Of a stretch of 64,000 nucleotides of DNA, positions 20,021 through 29,014 are shown in pieces; the stretch's first letter is position 1, and each line of letters starts with the position of its first letter. The notes beneath the pieces are model-generated. The model ran no database searches. It had not been told where the DNA came from and saw only the letters and a program-made list of their open reading frames with translations. The stretch lies in assembly GCA_030529855.1 (NCBI GenBank), contig JAUMWC010000005.1:30157-94156 (forward strand). Direction: 5' to 3'. Source of the DNA: Gemella sp. (GTDB lineage: Bacteria; Bacillota; Bacilli; Staphylococcales; Gemellaceae). Position numbers and translations under genes: made by a program.

Positions 20021-20061
20021 AGTATATAAGTAAAAATTAGGATAATAAAGGATTGAATAAA

Positions 20062-21681
20062 ATGAATAAAAAATTATTAATGTCATTAGCTATATTTTCT
20101 AGTACATTCGTAGCTAGTGAATTAGCAAATTTGAATGAAGCAGAAGCTAGTACAAAAAAAGTAACAACATATAAATTAAATAATTCAGCTAAAACATATG
20201 CAAATGCAGTAAATGCACAAACAGGAAAAAATGCTTCTAAAAAAATATATGCAGCAGGAAACTATTATGTATATAAAACAGCAACTAATGGAATGATTAA
20301 TATTTCAACTCAGCAAGGAAAGCCAGGAGCATGGATAAATCCTAATACAGGAGCAGTAGTATCAGCTACAAAAAATACAACAAGTGTAACTAAGAATACT
20401 GCAACGTCAACTCCTAAAACACCTGCAACTAAACCAGTTACACCAACAGAAAACCAAATAAAAGCAACAACTTACAAATTAAATGGTACGGTAGCAACTT
20501 ATGCAAATGCAGCAAATGCACAAACAGGAAAAAATGCTTCTAAAAAAACATATGCAGCAGGAAACTATTATGTATATAAAACAGCAAGTAATGGAATGAT
20601 TAATATTTCAACTCAGCAAGGAAAGCCAGGAGCATGGATAAATCCAAATTCTGCTAAGGCACCAGCATCTGTATCTAAAACTGCAACTCCAACAAAAACT
20701 ACGTCAACAGTAGTACAAAAACCGGCTGCAGCAACTACCAAAACAGAATCGACACCAGCTACATATAAATTAAGTAGTGCAGTACAAACATATGCGAACG
20801 CAGCAAATGCTAAAGCAGAAGTAAATTCTAAAAAAACATATGCAGCAGGAAACTATTATGTATATAAAACAGCAACTAATGGGATGATTAACATTTCAAA
20901 AACACCAGGTAAAGTTGGAGCATGGATTAACCCTAATGCAACTAACCCAAAAGCAGCTGCAACAGAACCTAAAAAAGAAACTACAAAACAAGCTACAACA
21001 GAAAAGCCAGCAACTAAGACCGTTGCTCAATCGATTGTAGCTCAAGACAAAGGTTCTAATTCTGGAGTTAGAAATAACTACGGAAAATACTCTAAAGTTA
21101 TCTACTTAGATGCAGGTCACGGGGCTGCAGATTCTGGAGCAGCATATTTTGGTCAAAAAGAAAAAGATTTAAACTTATCTATCTACAAGAAATTGACAAC
21201 TCAACTTCAAAAAGAAGGTTATACAATAAAAGGAACGAGAAATTCAGATACATTTACTAAATTACAAGATATTTCTGCAAAAGCGAACCAAACAGATGCA
21301 GATTTATTTGTAAGTATTCACTTTAATGCTTCGTCAAGTAGTGCAGCAAAAGGGATTGAAACATATTGGTACCAAGATTATAAAGAGTACCCAACAAAAA
21401 TTAATCAAGATAACCATTTAAACCCAGATAGATTAAGAAGAAGTGAAATTTTAGCTAACGGAATTCACTCTAACTTAATTAAGAATACAGGAGCTGTAGA
21501 CCGTGGAGTAAGACGTGATACATACTCAGTGTTAAGAGAAACAGCAATACCAGCAGTATTGTTAGAATTAGGATATATGTCAAATAGAGATGAAGCAACT
21601 AAGATTGGTCAATCATCTTACCAAGATAAACTAGTAGATGGAATTGTAAAAGGAATTAACAACTACTACCAAAAAGCATAG
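20062..21681 (+). CDS. Secreted N-acetylmuramoyl-L-alanine amidase with three wall-binding repeats
   Basis: A 539-residue autolysin-like protein. The signal peptide (…LAIFSSTFVASELANLNEAEA) is followed by three repeats of about 58 residues (TYKL…YAAGNYYVYKT…GMINIS…GAWINPN) separated by Thr/Pro/Lys linkers, then a zinc-dependent Amidase_3 domain (about 345-538). Catalytic residues visible are His in LDAGHGAADSGA, Glu in KEKDLNLS, His in VSIHFNAS and Glu in LLELGYMSNRDEA. The repeats resemble SH3-like wall-binding modules (inference from spacing). ATG 20062 has AAAGGA at the proper distance; the TTG at 20053 is too close to it. Confidence 0.92.
   Translation: MNKKLLMSLAIFSSTFVASELANLNEAEASTKKVTTYKLNNSAKTYANAVNAQTGKNASKKIYAAGNYYVYKTATNGMINISTQQGKPGAWINPNTGAVVSATKNTTSVTKNTATSTPKTPATKPVTPTENQIKATTYKLNGTVATYANAANAQTGKNASKKTYAAGNYYVYKTASNGMINISTQQGKPGAWINPNSAKAPASVSKTATPTKTTSTVVQKPAAATTKTESTPATYKLSSAVQTYANAANAKAEVNSKKTYAAGNYYVYKTATNGMINISKTPGKVGAWINPNATNPKAAATEPKKETTKQATTEKPATKTVAQSIVAQDKGSNSGVRNNYGKYSKVIYLDAGHGAADSGAAYFGQKEKDLNLSIYKKLTTQLQKEGYTIKGTRNSDTFTKLQDISAKANQTDADLFVSIHFNASSSSAAKGIETYWYQDYKEYPTKINQDNHLNPDRLRRSEILANGIHSNLIKNTGAVDRGVRRDTYSVLRETAIPAVLLELGYMSNRDEATKIGQSSYQDKLVDGIVKGINNYYQKA
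20167..20343 (+). repeat. Wall-binding repeat 1 of the amidase
   Basis: First of three tandem coding repeats. A 30-plus-bp core around TATGCAGCAGGAAACTATTA is identical in all three copies, so copy number could change by recombination. Confidence 0.9.
20470..20646 (+). repeat. Wall-binding repeat 2 of the amidase
   Basis: Nearly identical to repeat 1 at DNA level, including the NAQTGKNASKK and STQQGKPGAWINPN segments; offset 303 bp. Confidence 0.9.
20761..20937 (+). repeat. Wall-binding repeat 3 of the amidase
   Basis: More diverged than repeats 1 and 2 (NAKAEVNSKK, SKTPGKVGAWINPN) but with the same core; offset 291 bp from repeat 2. Confidence 0.88.
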
Positions 21682-24827: not shown

Positions 24828-24831
24828 ACTT

Positions 24832-24868
24832 AAAGATGATACAAGGAATAACTTGTATCATCTTTATT
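24832..24868 (+). terminator. Terminator of the monooxygenase gene
   Basis: AAAGATGATACAAG (24832-24845) pairs perfectly with CTTGTATCATCTTT (24852-24865). The next regulatory site begins at 24866. Confidence 0.9.
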
Positions 24869-24898
24869 CATTTAATATTCATACTTCTGTGTTATAAT
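24866..24898 (+). promoter_or_regulatory. Regulon promoter 1: ATTCAT direct repeat, drives the two-component system
   Basis: ATTCAT (24866-24871), N5, ATTCAT (24877-24882), N10, TATAAT (24893-24898). Half-site spacing of 11 bp fits tandem binding of an OmpR-family regulator. No -35 box is visible, so activation probably needs the regulator. The same layout recurs at 26968, 27069 and 27959, implying autoregulation. Confidence 0.88.
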
Positions 24899-24927
24899 TT
24901 ATTTAATAAATAATAAGGAGAATTCTT

Positions 24928-25599
24928 ATGAAAATTTTATTAGTAGAAGATGAATTAGATTTAAATAATATAATAGTGAGATATCTAAAGAAGAATAATT
25001 TTTCTGTGGATTCTGCCTTCAATGGAGAAGAAGCACTAGACTTCATAGCATTATCAGATTATGACTTAATAATAACAGATATAATGATGCCAGTAATGGA
25101 TGGTATAACATTCTTGAAAAAATTAAGAGAAGAAAAAAATTCAACGCCAGTAATAATGTTAACAGCTAAAGATAGTTTAGATGATAAAATAAGTGGACTT
25201 GATTATGGTGCTGACGATTATGTGGTAAAACCTTTTGAATTTGAAGAGTTAGTTGCTAGGATAAGAGCATTGATAAGAAGATCATACGGTTCATCATCTA
25301 GTGAATTAAAATTAGGTGATTTGGTATTAGACACAGCAAAAAAATCAGTAACAAGATCAGGAAAGAACATAGATCTTACAGGAAAAGAATATGAACTATT
25401 AGAATATTTACTTCATAATCAAGGTAAAGTATTGAGCAGGGATCAAATACTTAGTGGAGTTTGGGATTATGAATACGATGGAGCTTCTAATATAATAGAT
25501 GTACTTATTAAAAATATTAGAAAAAAAATAGATGTTGGAGAATCTAAGCCATTAATTCATACGAAGAGGGGGCTTGGATATGTTGCTAAAGAAGAGTAA
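24928..25599 (+). CDS. OmpR-family response regulator
   Basis: A 223-residue two-component regulator. The receiver domain (1-115) has the acidic pair in VEDE, phospho-acceptor Asp51 (IITDIMMP), Thr79 and Lys101 (VVKPFEF). The winged-helix DNA-binding domain (about 127-222) ends IHTKRGLGYVAKEE. It overlaps the kinase gene by 20 bases. It is the best candidate for binding the four ATTCAT-N5-ATTCAT sites around it, including the one before its own gene. Confidence 0.96.
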   Translation: MKILLVEDELDLNNIIVRYLKKNNFSVDSAFNGEEALDFIALSDYDLIITDIMMPVMDGITFLKKLREEKNSTPVIMLTAKDSLDDKISGLDYGADDYVVKPFEFEELVARIRALIRRSYGSSSSELKLGDLVLDTAKKSVTRSGKNIDLTGKEYELLEYLLHNQGKVLSRDQILSGVWDYEYDGASNIIDVLIKNIRKKIDVGESKPLIHTKRGLGYVAKEE

Positions 25600-26926
25600 G
25601 TTTTCTATAAATATTCCCTTAAGTTTGAAGGTGTCTGTATGGTATGGTACTTTTATAGCCCTTCTTTTGGCTTTTATAGTAGGGGGATCATTTTTCGCTA
25701 TAGATGAATTTTCTGACAGCGTTAGTAAAAAATCTCTAGTAGAAAATGTAAATAGTAGAGTTTACTATGACATAGAGGATTCAAGGGATGCATTTGAAGA
25801 AGGAGTTCATTATGCTGAATATGATTTGGAAACTGGGCAAATAAAAGGAATGTTACCAAGAGGGTTTCCAAATAATATCCAAAATTCTAACAATCAAGTA
25901 TCAGAAATAGAAGTAGGAGAAAGAGTATTTTACTACTATGATGTTCAAATACCTGGAGAAGATGATAAATTCTTACGTGGAGTTACAGAAGTATCGAAAA
26001 TAAAAGAAGTGCTTTATTATTTCCCTATTTTACTAATGATAATAAGCCCCTTTGTTCTATTTCTAGTAATTTATGTCGGTTATTTGATTTTAAAAAAATC
26101 CTTATCTCCGATAAGAAGTATGACTGATACAGCAGATGAAATTTCTAGATCGTCTGATTTATCTAAAAGAATAGCTATTCCAAATACAAAAGATGAAGTA
26201 GAAGTACTAGCAAAAACTTTTAACAATATGCTTATAAGTTTGGAAACTTCATCAGAAAGAGAAAAGAGATTTTCATCAGATGTTTCTCATGAACTTAGAA
26301 CACCTGTTTCAGTGATTAGAGCAGAAGCGGAGTATGCAAGTAAATATGCAGATAGTTTAGAAGAATCGAAACAATCACTAGAAGTAATCGATCGTCAGTC
26401 TAAGAGAATGACAGATATGATAAATCAAATTTTGGAAATTTCAAGATTAGATACCAAGTCTAGTGTAGAAAAAGAAGAAGTCAACTTATCAGAGATGTTA
26501 ACAAACATAGCTAAAGATTATACAAGTTTAATAGAGAAAAATAACTTGAAGTTAAATACTGACTTAGGACAAGATATAAAACTAAATGCAAATCACGATC
26601 TAATGCATAGATTAATAGATAATATATTATTGAATGCAATAAAATTTGCTGATGAAAACATTAAGATAAACTTATCTAAAGAAAATTCAAATATTAGAAT
26701 ATCTGTAATTGACGATGGACCTGGAATTCCAGATGAATATAAAGAAAAAGTATGGGAAAGATTCTACAAGGTTGACCAATCTAGAACTAGAACTGAAAAC
26801 CAATCATCAGGATTAGGTTTATCGATCTCTAAAAAAATTGCAGAATTACATAATGGAAGTATTACAATAAAAGATAATAATCCAAAAGGAACTATAATGG
26901 ATATAGTTTTCAAGGTACAAGAGTAG
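25580..26926 (+). CDS. Sensor histidine kinase
   Basis: A 448-residue membrane kinase: membrane helix 1 (about 15-40), an extracellular sensor loop of about 105 residues, helix 2 (about 146-171), HAMP (about 174-226), HisKA with phospho-acceptor His237 in SSDVSHELRTP, then a catalytic domain with N-box NHDLMHRLIDNILLNAIKF, DDGPGIP and SGLGLSIS. The ATG at 25580 has a GGGGG element 8 bases upstream inside the regulator gene; the frame extends to a TTG at 25574. Overlap shows translational coupling. The ligand is unknown; acidic PepSY proteins encoded downstream hint at an envelope or cationic-agent signal (inference). Confidence 0.95.
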   Translation: MLLKKSKFSINIPLSLKVSVWYGTFIALLLAFIVGGSFFAIDEFSDSVSKKSLVENVNSRVYYDIEDSRDAFEEGVHYAEYDLETGQIKGMLPRGFPNNIQNSNNQVSEIEVGERVFYYYDVQIPGEDDKFLRGVTEVSKIKEVLYYFPILLMIISPFVLFLVIYVGYLILKKSLSPIRSMTDTADEISRSSDLSKRIAIPNTKDEVEVLAKTFNNMLISLETSSEREKRFSSDVSHELRTPVSVIRAEAEYASKYADSLEESKQSLEVIDRQSKRMTDMINQILEISRLDTKSSVEKEEVNLSEMLTNIAKDYTSLIEKNNLKLNTDLGQDIKLNANHDLMHRLIDNILLNAIKFADENIKINLSKENSNIRISVIDDGPGIPDEYKEKVWERFYKVDQSRTRTENQSSGLGLSISKKIAELHNGSITIKDNNPKGTIMDIVFKVQE

Positions 26927-26929
26927 TAT

Positions 26930-26957
26930 AAAAGCTACTCTTTTTTATTTTTAAAAT
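26930..26957 (+). terminator. Terminator of the two-component operon
   Basis: AGAGTAG (26930-26936) pairs with CTACTCT (26945-26951), then TTTTT. Separates the kinase gene from the PepSY genes, which have their own promoters. Confidence 0.82.
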
Positions 26958-26967
26958 TAATAAGATT

Positions 26968-27000
26968 ATTCATTTTCTATTCATTTAACTTACATATAAT
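26968..27000 (+). promoter_or_regulatory. Regulon promoter 2: ATTCAT direct repeat
   Basis: ATTCAT (26968-26973), N5, ATTCAT (26979-26984), N10, TATAAT (26995-27000). It fires into a short leader that has no gene before promoter 3. Confidence 0.87.
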
Positions 27001-27006
27001 ATAAGT

Positions 27007-27022
27007 ATCTCAGGTGAGAGAT
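27007..27022 (+). other. 5'-terminal leader hairpin A
   Basis: ATCTC (27007-27011), loop AGGTGA, GAGAT (27018-27022), starting 7 bases after the -10, so it would be the very 5' end of the transcript. It matches hairpin B at 27998. Downstream sits a 10-codon frame (MKNSIQKTKK from 27021) of doubtful meaning. Confidence 0.6.
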
Positions 27023-27068
27023 GAAAAATTCAATCCAAAAAACAAAAAAATAAAAAACAAATAATAAT

Positions 27069-27101
27069 ATTCATTTTAAATTCATTTAGACAAAATATAA
27101 T
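27069..27101 (+). promoter_or_regulatory. Regulon promoter 3: ATTCAT direct repeat, drives the first PepSY gene
   Basis: ATTCAT (27069-27074), N5, ATTCAT (27080-27085), N10, TATAAT (27096-27101). Tandem with promoter 2, 101 bp apart. Confidence 0.87.
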
Positions 27102-27133
27102 AATAGTAAGATAAGAACAAGGAGATAAAATAA

Positions 27134-27703
27134 ATGAAAGACACATTAAAAGAAGTAGTAAGCTTAGGAAAACAAGCTGGGGAGCATACACTAGTATGGG
27201 CAAAAGGAAATATAAAAAAAATTACTAAGTGGTCAATAGTAGGTTTAGTAACAGTATCTTTAGTAGGTGGTGGAGTAGCAGCTGCTTACACTTATGTAGA
27301 TTATAGATTAGACAGACAAACAGCAGAAGCACAAACTAATTTAATACTTAAACAAGCACAAGGAGAAAATATTACTCTAAAAACTCCAGATGAAATCAAA
27401 AATATTGTTGCTCAAACAATTGGAAAAGACCAAGGTTCGATTTGGTTCCAAGAAGTAGAATTATACAATGGACAAGTAGCCGGTGGATATGGAGATAGAT
27501 ATGAGCGTGATTTAGATGATAGATTCGATTTTGATGAAGATGACAGATTCGAAAGAAACTATAATTTTAATAACCAAGTTATAACTACTGGCACGCAAGA
27601 CTATGTTTACCAAGTAGAAGCAAGAGAAAAATTTATGAAATATGATTTAACAATTGATGCAAAAACAGGAAAAGTTTTATCATCAAGAGTAGATAACTTT
27701 TAA
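27134..27703 (+). CDS. Exported PepSY-domain protein 1
   Basis: A 189-residue protein. A basic N-terminus of about 35 residues precedes one membrane or signal segment (WSIVGLVTVSLVGGGVAAAY, about 36-55). The exported part begins with a PepSY-like first half (KTPDEIKNIVAQTIGKD), has an acidic insert rich in Asp/Arg (about 118-138) and ends in the PepSY signature YDLTIDAKTGKVLSSRV. PepSY domains are thought to bind or inhibit extracellular ligands or proteases; here the function is unknown. Paralogous to the genes at 28071 and 28643. ATG follows AAGGAG. Two tandem ATTCAT promoters lie upstream. Confidence 0.88.
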   Translation: MKDTLKEVVSLGKQAGEHTLVWAKGNIKKITKWSIVGLVTVSLVGGGVAAAYTYVDYRLDRQTAEAQTNLILKQAQGENITLKTPDEIKNIVAQTIGKDQGSIWFQEVELYNGQVAGGYGDRYERDLDDRFDFDEDDRFERNYNFNNQVITTGTQDYVYQVEAREKFMKYDLTIDAKTGKVLSSRVDNF

Positions 27704-27708
27704 TACTA

Positions 27709-27727
27709 CATTTTAAATTTTAAAATG
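27709..27727. repeat. Perfect 19-bp palindrome between PepSY gene 1 and the small gene
   Basis: CATTTTAAA, T, TTTAAAATG. No T-run follows; it could be a weak terminator, a processing site or an operator. A TATACT box follows at about 27731. Confidence 0.5.
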
Positions 27728-27766
27728 CTACTATACTATAAGAAATTAGAAATATAGGAGAAAACA

Positions 27767-27952
27767 ATGGAGAATTTAAAAAATATAGATAAGAAAAAAA
27801 TAACCAGGTTAACAACAAATAGTATCTTATCATTGATACTATTGAGCGGTGGTTCAGCTCTCGCTAACAAAATGTATGACGATGTAAAGGTTATACAAGA
27901 GGGACAAACTCAAATAGTAGAAATAAAAGAAAAGAAAAAAATTAAAAATTAA
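27767..27952 (+). CDS. Small exported protein, probably a truncated PepSY paralogue
   Basis: 61 residues: basic start, one hydrophobic segment (ILSLILLSGGSALA, about 21-34) with a plausible signal-peptidase site, then a short charged tail ending KEKKKIKN. The N-terminus resembles those of the neighbouring PepSY proteins, but the PepSY domain is missing. A good RBS (TAGGAG) and correct spacing suggest it is still translated. It is either a degenerate copy or a small peptide acting with its neighbours. Confidence 0.6.
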   Translation: MENLKNIDKKKITRLTTNSILSLILLSGGSALANKMYDDVKVIQEGQTQIVEIKEKKKIKN

Positions 27953-27958
27953 TAAAAC

Positions 27959-27991
27959 ATTCATCTTAGATTCATAAAAGAATCATATAAT
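27959..27991 (+). promoter_or_regulatory. Regulon promoter 4: ATTCAT direct repeat, drives PepSY genes 2 and 3
   Basis: ATTCAT (27959-27964), N5, ATTCAT (27970-27975), N10, TATAAT (27986-27991). Identical spacing to the other three sites. Confidence 0.87.
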
Positions 27992-27997
27992 ATAAAT

Positions 27998-28012
27998 ATC
28001 TCAGGAAGAGAT
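27998..28012 (+). other. 5'-terminal leader hairpin B
   Basis: ATCTC (27998-28002), loop AGGAA, GAGAT (28008-28012), 7 bases after the -10, as in hairpin A. The shared stretch from TATAAT through GAGATG shows the two leaders are copies or under common constraint. Confidence 0.6.
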
Positions 28013-28070
28013 GCTAAAAATAATATATAAAACAAACAAAAAAGAACATAAAATAAAAGAGGAATAAACA

Positions 28071-28598
28071 ATGAATAAATCAGTAAAAATTTTAATGAGA
28101 AAATTAGAAGAAATTAACTTAAAGAGATTAGCAAAAGTATCAGCTGTAACTTTAGTATCACTAAGCTTAGTAGGTGGAAGTTCGGCGTATGCAGATGACA
28201 TATTTGAAGATAAAGCAAGAGCAGAACAAGTAAACTTATTAATAAACCAAGCTAAAAGTGAAAATATAACGTTAAAAAACCAAGATGAAATTAAAAAGAT
28301 TGTAGCTGAATCAATAGGAAAAGATTTAAATTCTATCAGATTTGAAAAAATAGAATTATTTGATACTTATGCAACAGATCAAGCCGGTGTAAGATATTAC
28401 AATGAAGATAGATATGATGATGACAATGATGGAGATGACAGAGATTACATAACACTTCCATCTGATAGTTCAAATAATGGTAATAACCAATCTAAAGAAT
28501 ACATCTATAAAGTAGATGCAGATGTAAACTTTATTGAATATAAATTAACGATTGATGCAAAAACAGGAAAAGTACTAACATCAAGAGTAGACAACTAA
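28071..28598 (+). CDS. Exported PepSY-domain protein 2
   Basis: 175 residues with a signal peptide (VSAVTLVSLSLVGGSSAYA, about 22-40, cleavage likely after AYA). A first PepSY half follows (KNQDEIKKIVAESIGKDLNSIRFEKIEL), then a very acidic insert of Asp/Asn residues (about 110-130) and the PepSY end YKLTIDAKTGKVLTSRV. Paralogue of the 27134 product. Start ATG has AGAGGA upstream. Behind promoter 4 and hairpin B; the next PepSY gene starts about 45 bases after its stop. Confidence 0.88.
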   Translation: MNKSVKILMRKLEEINLKRLAKVSAVTLVSLSLVGGSSAYADDIFEDKARAEQVNLLINQAKSENITLKNQDEIKKIVAESIGKDLNSIRFEKIELFDTYATDQAGVRYYNEDRYDDDNDGDDRDYITLPSDSSNNGNNQSKEYIYKVDADVNFIEYKLTIDAKTGKVLTSRVDN

Positions 28599-28642
28599 TC
28601 TTAAAATAATAAATATATATGTGTGTGAAGAAGAGAATAAAA

Positions 28643-29014
28643 ATGAAAAAGGCAATTAAAAATAATATTAAAAAAGTAGTAGCATTATCAACAGTCGGTT
28701 TAGTAACGTTATCTTTAGTAGGTGGCGGAGTAGCGTCAGCTTATGACGATGATGCAGAAGACAGATATGAAGAACAAGTTAAGTATACTTATGCTCAAAA
28801 AACAACACAAGAAAAATTAAAAACAAGAGCAGAAGTTAAAGAGATTGTTATAAAAAAATTAGGAAACTCAGCGTGGGTAGAGAGTATTGAACTATCTGAT
28901 GATTATGTAGGTCAATATATTTACGAAGTAGAAGCTCAAGTAGGTTATACTGATTACAAATTAAAAGTAGATGCAAAAACAGGAAAAGTTTTATCATCAA
29001 GAATTGATTATTAA
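28643..29014 (+). CDS. Exported PepSY-domain protein 3 (short form)
   Basis: 123 residues from ATG 28643 (frame open from ATG 28619). A signal segment (VALSTVGLVTLSLVGGGVASAY) is followed by a short acidic stretch (YDDDAEDRYEEQ) and a single compact PepSY domain ending YKLKVDAKTGKVLSSRID. It lacks the long acidic insert of its two paralogues. The start is uncertain: neither candidate has a strong Shine-Dalgarno. Probably co-transcribed with PepSY gene 2. Confidence 0.83.
   Translation: MKKAIKNNIKKVVALSTVGLVTLSLVGGGVASAYDDDAEDRYEEQVKYTYAQKTTQEKLKTRAEVKEIVIKKLGNSAWVESIELSDDYVGQYIYEVEAQVGYTDYKLKVDAKTGKVLSSRIDY

Follow-up and report, generated by a model that had tools for sequence, protein, structure and literature searches.

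The cassette and its repeat promoters

In a 64,000-nucleotide (nt) stretch of Gemella sp. contig JAUMWC010000005.1, hereafter the window (host assembly 1.61 Mb in 40 contigs, 96.74% complete), a two-component system lies beside genes for PepSY proteins in the order regulator, kinase, PepSY gene 1, a 61-amino-acid (aa) frame, PepSY gene 2 and PepSY gene 3. We refer to this group of genes as the cassette. An original prediction, made from the letters of the window, had proposed four promoters of the exact form ATTCAT-N5-ATTCAT-N10-TATAAT at this locus. A pattern scan of the window verified all four, starting at 24866, 26968, 27069 and 27959, and they are placed as predicted, with one ahead of the regulator (24928), two ahead of PepSY gene 1 (27134) and one ahead of PepSY genes 2 and 3 (28071 and 28619). 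The features of the locus are as follows.

24831..24866, + strand: terminator-like hairpin 3' of the upstream luciferase-like monooxygenase gene, abutting the first ATTCAT repeat
24866..24898, + strand: promoter P1 of the regulator-kinase operon; ATTCAT at 24866-24871 and 24877-24882, -10 box TATAAT at 24893-24898
24928..25599, + strand: OmpR/PhoB-family response regulator, 223 aa (Response_reg 1e-32, Trans_reg_C 1e-26)
25574..26926, + strand: sensor histidine kinase, 450 aa, start probably ATG 25580; HAMP, HisKA and HATPase_c
26919..26942, + strand: terminator-like hairpin at the end of the kinase gene, which would part the operon from the PepSY unit
26968..27000, + strand: promoter P2a, first of the tandem pair for PepSY gene 1; exact repeat and -10 box
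27069..27101, + strand: promoter P2b, second of this pair; exact repeat and -10 box
27134..27703, + strand: PepSY gene 1, 189 aa; PepSY match at E 2.8e-4 and 21.6 bits, below the cut-off; acidic outer part
27767..27952, + strand: 61-aa frame between PepSY genes 1 and 2, resembling the N-terminus of PepSY proteins (E 4.8e-4 to PepSY2)
27959..27991, + strand: promoter P3 of PepSY genes 2 and 3; exact repeat and -10 box
28071..28598, + strand: PepSY gene 2, 175 aa; 13.7 bits, below the Pfam cut-off; PepSY fold in the structure model
28619..29014, + strand: PepSY gene 3, 131 aa, start probably ATG 28643; PepSY match at 35.3 bits; without a site of its own

When up to three mismatches were allowed, the window held six matches to the full pattern against 0.74 expected from shuffles, the two additional ones carrying three mismatches each. 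As had been predicted, no -35 box accompanies the four sites: 16 to 18 nt before the -10 boxes, the best hexamers share at most three of six letters with TTGACA (counted by eye). A sigma-70 scan listed none of the four -10 boxes; a weak match at 27075-27104 overlaps P2b with a -10 that is off by three bases. With the -10 box set at -12 to -7, the repeats span -39 to -34 and -28 to -23 by the geometry of the sequence, positions at which an activator would take the place of the -35 box. Because terminator-like hairpins lie at 24831-24866 and 26919-26942, the regulator-kinase operon is likely transcribed apart from the PepSY genes, with the repeat at the head of each unit.

The regulator has a receiver domain and a winged-helix Trans_reg_C domain, both far above their cut-offs, which places it in the OmpR/PhoB family. 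For the N-terminal part of the kinase, the structure model predicts a PAS-like outer domain between two long helices, followed by HAMP, HisKA and HATPase_c. The PepSY label in the original prediction stands for gene 3 by sequence and for gene 2 by predicted fold, whereas genes 1 and 2 fall below the PF03413 gathering cut-off of 24 that gene 3 exceeds. The best structural matches of the gene 2 model are PepSY structures, and the model has a low-confidence acidic insertion at residues 103-139; with Foldseek alone, neither of two models found a match at E 0.001. The PepSY gene 1 protein begins with a hydrophobic segment that, judged by eye, would serve for export or anchoring. PepSY gene 3 begins 20 nt past PepSY gene 2. 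The 61-aa frame at 27767-27952, which the original prediction lacked, is possibly a remnant or a small membrane peptide.

Short hairpins were seen at the predicted 5' ends of the P2a (about 27006-27023) and P3 (about 27997-28013) transcripts. Loci L062 and L063 of the genomes compared below have longer hairpins of different sequence directly after the -10 box (by eye). Such leader hairpins are possibly transcript stabilisers.

The repeat across the family

Fifteen genomes of the family were compared, with carriers defined by a kinase orthologue at E < 1e-100. Ten of them carry the kinase, two of these being only 66 and 72% complete, and in all ten it is preceded by an orthologous regulator and followed by PepSY genes: one in eight genomes, two in G013 and three in G000. 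A single word is common upstream of the regulator and PepSY genes in all 10 carriers, ten bases before a -10-like box. It emerged from an unbiased search for five-letter words repeated at gaps of 0-29 within 250 bp before 10 regulator and 13 PepSY genes. The top word was TTCAT at gap 6 (an 11-bp period), found before 22 of the 23 genes, including the regulator in 10/10 carriers, although the 23 regions are not independent, as the genomes are related and the seven g2 genomes are especially close. PepSY gene 3 has the only region without a site. Runner-up words at gap 6 overlap the same repeats (ATTCA 9, CATTT and TCATT 7), the best word at any other gap reached 7, and at gap 6 no word in 200 shuffle sets went beyond 5 in the full 23 regions, 3 in the regulator set or 6 in the PepSY set. 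Among 27 distinct sites, which were drawn by the word and whose repeat letters are therefore invariant by construction, the -10 box was not required and is nearly invariant (TANAAT-like, four letters in 27/27), while most spacer positions vary. The -10 box of the G006 regulator site reads TACAGT.

Across the 15 genomes there are 24 exact copies of the core TTCAT-N6-TTCAT-N10-TATAAT, every one within the cassette, against 1 in the control. With one mismatch allowed there are 51 matches, of which 31 lie in the cassette, 17 elsewhere in carriers and 3 in non-carriers (control 32). Matches outside the cassette are thus not above the reversed-pattern control (20 vs 32). In the host assembly, the full pattern at up to two mismatches has four matches, all exact and all of them the window sites, with five in the reversed-pattern control, and the bare ATTCAT-N5-ATTCAT occurs at the four window sites only. 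The looser TTCAT-N6-TTCAT occurs 17 times against 25 in the control. Thirteen of these pairs lie outside the cassette, 12 of them inside open frames of at least 253 codons.

An AddA-like frame begins 66 nt after the sole non-coding outside pair (L135, oriented position 1501), which has TATGCT at a distance of ten bases and TATAAT at sixteen. The AddA-like gene is present in 13 of the 15 family genomes, and the pair before it is exact in the host genome only. A copy with one mismatch stands at the corresponding position in G002, a genome without the cassette, and G006 has a one-mismatch copy further upstream; the other 10 family genomes with the gene showed none. Being unconserved in the family and present, with one mismatch, in a genome without the cassette, the pair looks unlinked to the cassette regulator, and a weak fifth target is a possibility. 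Searches for a hidden wider regulon, using either the core (one mismatch at most) or the pair without a -10 box, gave nothing above control, and weak sites could escape them.

By comparison across genomes, the regulon looks confined to the locus. The same evidence backs the predicted control of the regulator over itself and the PepSY genes, through a repeat of OmpR-family type in place of the -35 box, as originally put forward, and the scans of the whole and related genomes did not yield the many random matches that were to refute it.

The cassette occupies four neighbourhoods, those of G000, G001, G003 and the seven g2 genomes, because no flanking open reading frame (ORF) is common to these groups (at least 120 aa, E 1e-15, within the 9-14 kb fetched per locus) while the g2 genomes have most flanks in common among themselves. 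The non-carrier G007 has the g2 flanking genes, separated by five other ORFs, and in G010 the contig ends at that place. A transposase-like helix-turn-helix gene lies upstream of the cassette in G003 (L062:1985-2446).

In g2, the first PepSY gene is preceded by one to four promoter units, depending on the species, which are 66 bp apart where there are several. Each 66-bp unit holds its own repeat and -10 box; such arrays occur at L064:7726-7967 and in L065, L066, L068 and L070, and a tandem finder counted 3.7 copies with 93% matches on L064. P2a and P2b of the window form two units 101 bp apart. The tandem promoters and additional PepSY genes point to a high demand for PepSY protein in the on state of the system.

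PepSY matches (E 0.01) were absent from the five non-carriers, and all eight in the seven g2 carriers sit in the cassette. Further PepSY genes outside the cassette exist in g1 carriers, and the one read in G000 has no repeat. L102:2716-3204 of the host genome encodes another PepSY protein, with an N-terminal hydrophobic segment and without the repeat. The carriers G001 and G003 also have, outside the cassette, open frames (L099 and L100) of some 590 aa that hold several PepSY domains.

Known PepSY circuits

The original prediction knew of no described system with this composition. Here it must be corrected: DbfQRS, UipRS-UipA, BqsP/BqsQ and YycI have already been described, and the pairing of PepSY genes with a two-component system is an established kind, so that the composition is not new. 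In Vibrio cholerae, DbfQ binds the DbfS sensor domain with a Kd of 30 nM and probably biases DbfS to phosphatase, the dbfQRS operon appears to be positively autoregulated, and DbfQRS-like neighbourhoods occur in several phyla at over 60-fold above the expected frequency (PMC12714742). The arrangement that defines them there, a kinase or regulator gene no more than four genes from that of a small PepSY protein, is found here too, where a small PepSY protein gene adjoins the kinase and regulator pair. The dbfQ gene is upstream, is predicted to be co-transcribed and belongs to a system of broad transcriptional effect, whereas the cassette has one to three PepSY genes downstream, under their own regulator-type promoters, one to four of these in tandem, and no target outside the cassette was seen.

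UipRS of Microbacterium lies upstream of UipA, a single-pass membrane PepSY protein whose negatively charged face binds uranyl, and according to the review, a sensing role of UipRS was not shown (PMC8963506). Gene order is the same as in the cassette: the two-component genes come first, and the membrane PepSY protein that follows has an acidic face. UipA has two tandem PepSY domains, whereas each window protein has one PepSY stretch at most. UipA was not among the structural matches listed, which carries no weight.

In Pseudomonas aeruginosa, two PepSY genes (PA2658 and PA2659) adjoin BqsRS/CarRS, and the BqsR site TTAAG-N6-TTAAG, with 432 candidate sites at up to two mutations in the genome (PMC4682146), shares its 5-6-5 geometry with the cassette repeat. 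BqsRS differs in its repeat word, in its hundreds of candidate sites and in having the PepSY genes upstream. BqsP/BqsQ and YycI have been named as PepSY regulators of two-component systems (PMC4282423). The likeness of YycI-YycFG (WalRK) of Bacillus to the cassette lies in a PepSY-type protein that regulates a two-component system. YycFG is an essential cell-wall system with an accessory gene in its own operon and does not form a closed cassette.

The promoter frame of the cassette (repeat, N5, repeat, N10, -10 box) is that of CiaR promoters in streptococci. The CiaR word is NTTAAG-N5-TTTAAG, ten bases from the -10 box, and CiaR controls 15 promoters in S. pneumoniae (PMC3091779), whereas ATTCAT stands at all four window sites and TTCAT is the word that emerged from the unbiased search. 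The recognition helix reads VVEVYVSKVRKKL in CiaR vs NI(I/V)DV(L/I/V)(I/V)KNIRKK(I/L) in the cassette regulators. PepSY genes are not named among the CiaR targets in the portion of the text of PMC3091779 used here. CiaR-type small-RNA genes between the tandem promoters were considered and rejected, as no terminator was found there.

Operons of a sister family with the order PepSY, response regulator, histidine kinase (L103-L115) also have a PepSY gene beside a two-component system and 11-bp repeats before PepSY. They differ in that PepSY comes first, in their triple TTTAAT-like repeats about 21-23 bp before the -10 box, and in a recognition helix that is mostly NTVDVYVRYIRKK vs NI(I/V)DV(L/I/V)(I/V)KNIRKK in the cassette. 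Of 17 stretches from other genomes, 14 hold a regulator and kinase, 12 of these with a PepSY match (L117, L118 and L119, which lack these genes, were dropped). Their repeat pattern with a -10 box, which was written after the sequences had been read, occurs in 10/12 PepSY promoters and 2/14 regulator promoters (0/300 shuffles each); further repeats there were spotted by eye only. Orthology was rejected because a tree of 44 kinase sequences puts the sister-family kinases in a separate clade. The sister-family operons are thus a second, non-orthologous PepSY circuit, the same idea with a different regulator.

Bacillus ykoGH was considered as the closest relative and set aside; no paper on ykoGH with PepSY was found, nor, in the open-access literature, one on the present system in this family. 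A scan of the genome contigs returned five distant kinases, and protein searches one further kinase and four further PepSY2 relatives, all on short contigs. What sets the cassette apart from the known cases is that its regulon seems closed, that the PepSY genes have regulator-type promoters of their own, and that 66-bp promoter units stand in tandem.

Proposed mechanism and alternatives

In our best reading, which we consider about evenly balanced, the system is positively autoregulated and its PepSY proteins are both surface output and kinase brake. Its best-supported steps are positive autoregulation and activation of the PepSY genes, both well backed, as predictions, by comparison. The regulator likely binds TTCAT-N6-TTCAT where a -35 box would stand, an activator that by the promoter layout would cover -39 to -23, as CiaR does, and it would switch on its own operon and the PepSY genes only. 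An outer role of the PepSY proteins is suggested by analogy. Predicted to be exported, they would act outside the cell, where the PepSY domain may bind the kinase at its PAS-like outer domain and tip it towards phosphatase, as the related DbfQ appears to do with DbfS. PepSY itself could be the useful product, for example as a surface binder of cations, cationic peptides or a protease, and would have to be the output, because no other regulon target is visible. Stress clearance and docking on the kinase would then both shut the loop. The double role is proposed because a closed regulon needs an output and relatives show PepSY docking on a kinase.

More tentatively, the cassette may be a portable closed device, with its own operon and PepSY genes as sole targets. 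Surface PepSY would be output, sensor ligand and off-switch, gain would be tuned by copying the 66-bp promoter unit and PepSY genes, and the whole would have been transferred as one piece between four or more neighbourhoods.

PepSY domains often occur beside two-component systems, yet their role has been worked out in few cases. Here the visible regulon consists of regulator, kinase and PepSY only, which makes the question of effector or brake directly testable, because PepSY has almost nothing else to do in such a circuit. The DNA side is readily testable as well, since the site is short and exact and its promoter frame is constant; in the tandem promoters, nature has already varied the copy number as a gain experiment would.

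The best reading and its four rivals were weighed as mutually exclusive readings that share the whole probability. It is rather unlikely, though the strongest of the rivals, that the PepSY proteins are pure effectors, exported and acidic, which bind a metal or cationic peptide at the surface with no kinase contact while the kinase senses the agent directly. UipA, with its uranyl-binding negative face and the same gene order (PMC8963506), is in line with this, as are net-negative outer parts in 12/13 PepSY proteins (charge computed across carriers), the high expression suggested by tandem promoters, and the best scores of regulator and kinase against heavy-metal subfamily models, yet below the cut-offs of those models. 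However, the g2 proteins lack the acidic insertion and have N/Q-rich linkers instead, and the cassette has no transporter, efflux or metal gene, nor was a site found before one.

We think it unlikely that the PepSY proteins are DbfQ-like accessory regulators of the kinase only, with the true outputs under weaker or differently spaced sites, so that the regulon would not be closed. In its favour, many genes are under DbfRS control (PMC12714742), candidate BqsR sites number in the hundreds (PMC4682146), degenerate sites escape pattern searches, and the AddA-like frame has one weak candidate before it. Against this stand the lack of any excess of one-mismatch sites outside the cassette, the total of pairs in the host below control with 12 of the 13 outside the cassette in long frames, and the unconserved AddA-side pair. 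That the PepSY proteins act like propeptides to inhibit an extracellular protease, with the two-component system sensing secretion or envelope stress, is improbable: a Pfam scan of nine flanking proteins (five by G009, two by the window cassette and two by G003) found no protease. It is most improbable of all that the repeats are chance or sites of an unrelated factor; six-base words are common in an AT-rich window (GC 0.32), but the genome-wide, family-wide and unbiased-word counts contradict chance, and a chance origin is ruled out by the window shuffles, the genome-wide counts, the 24/24 cassette matches and the word search (22/23 vs 5). Taken as a whole, the interpretation in the original prediction is partly supported.

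About 3 kb upstream of the cassette, 20053-21681 of the window encodes a protein of 542 aa that, by eye, has three repeats resembling one another and a C-terminal part that looks amidase-like.

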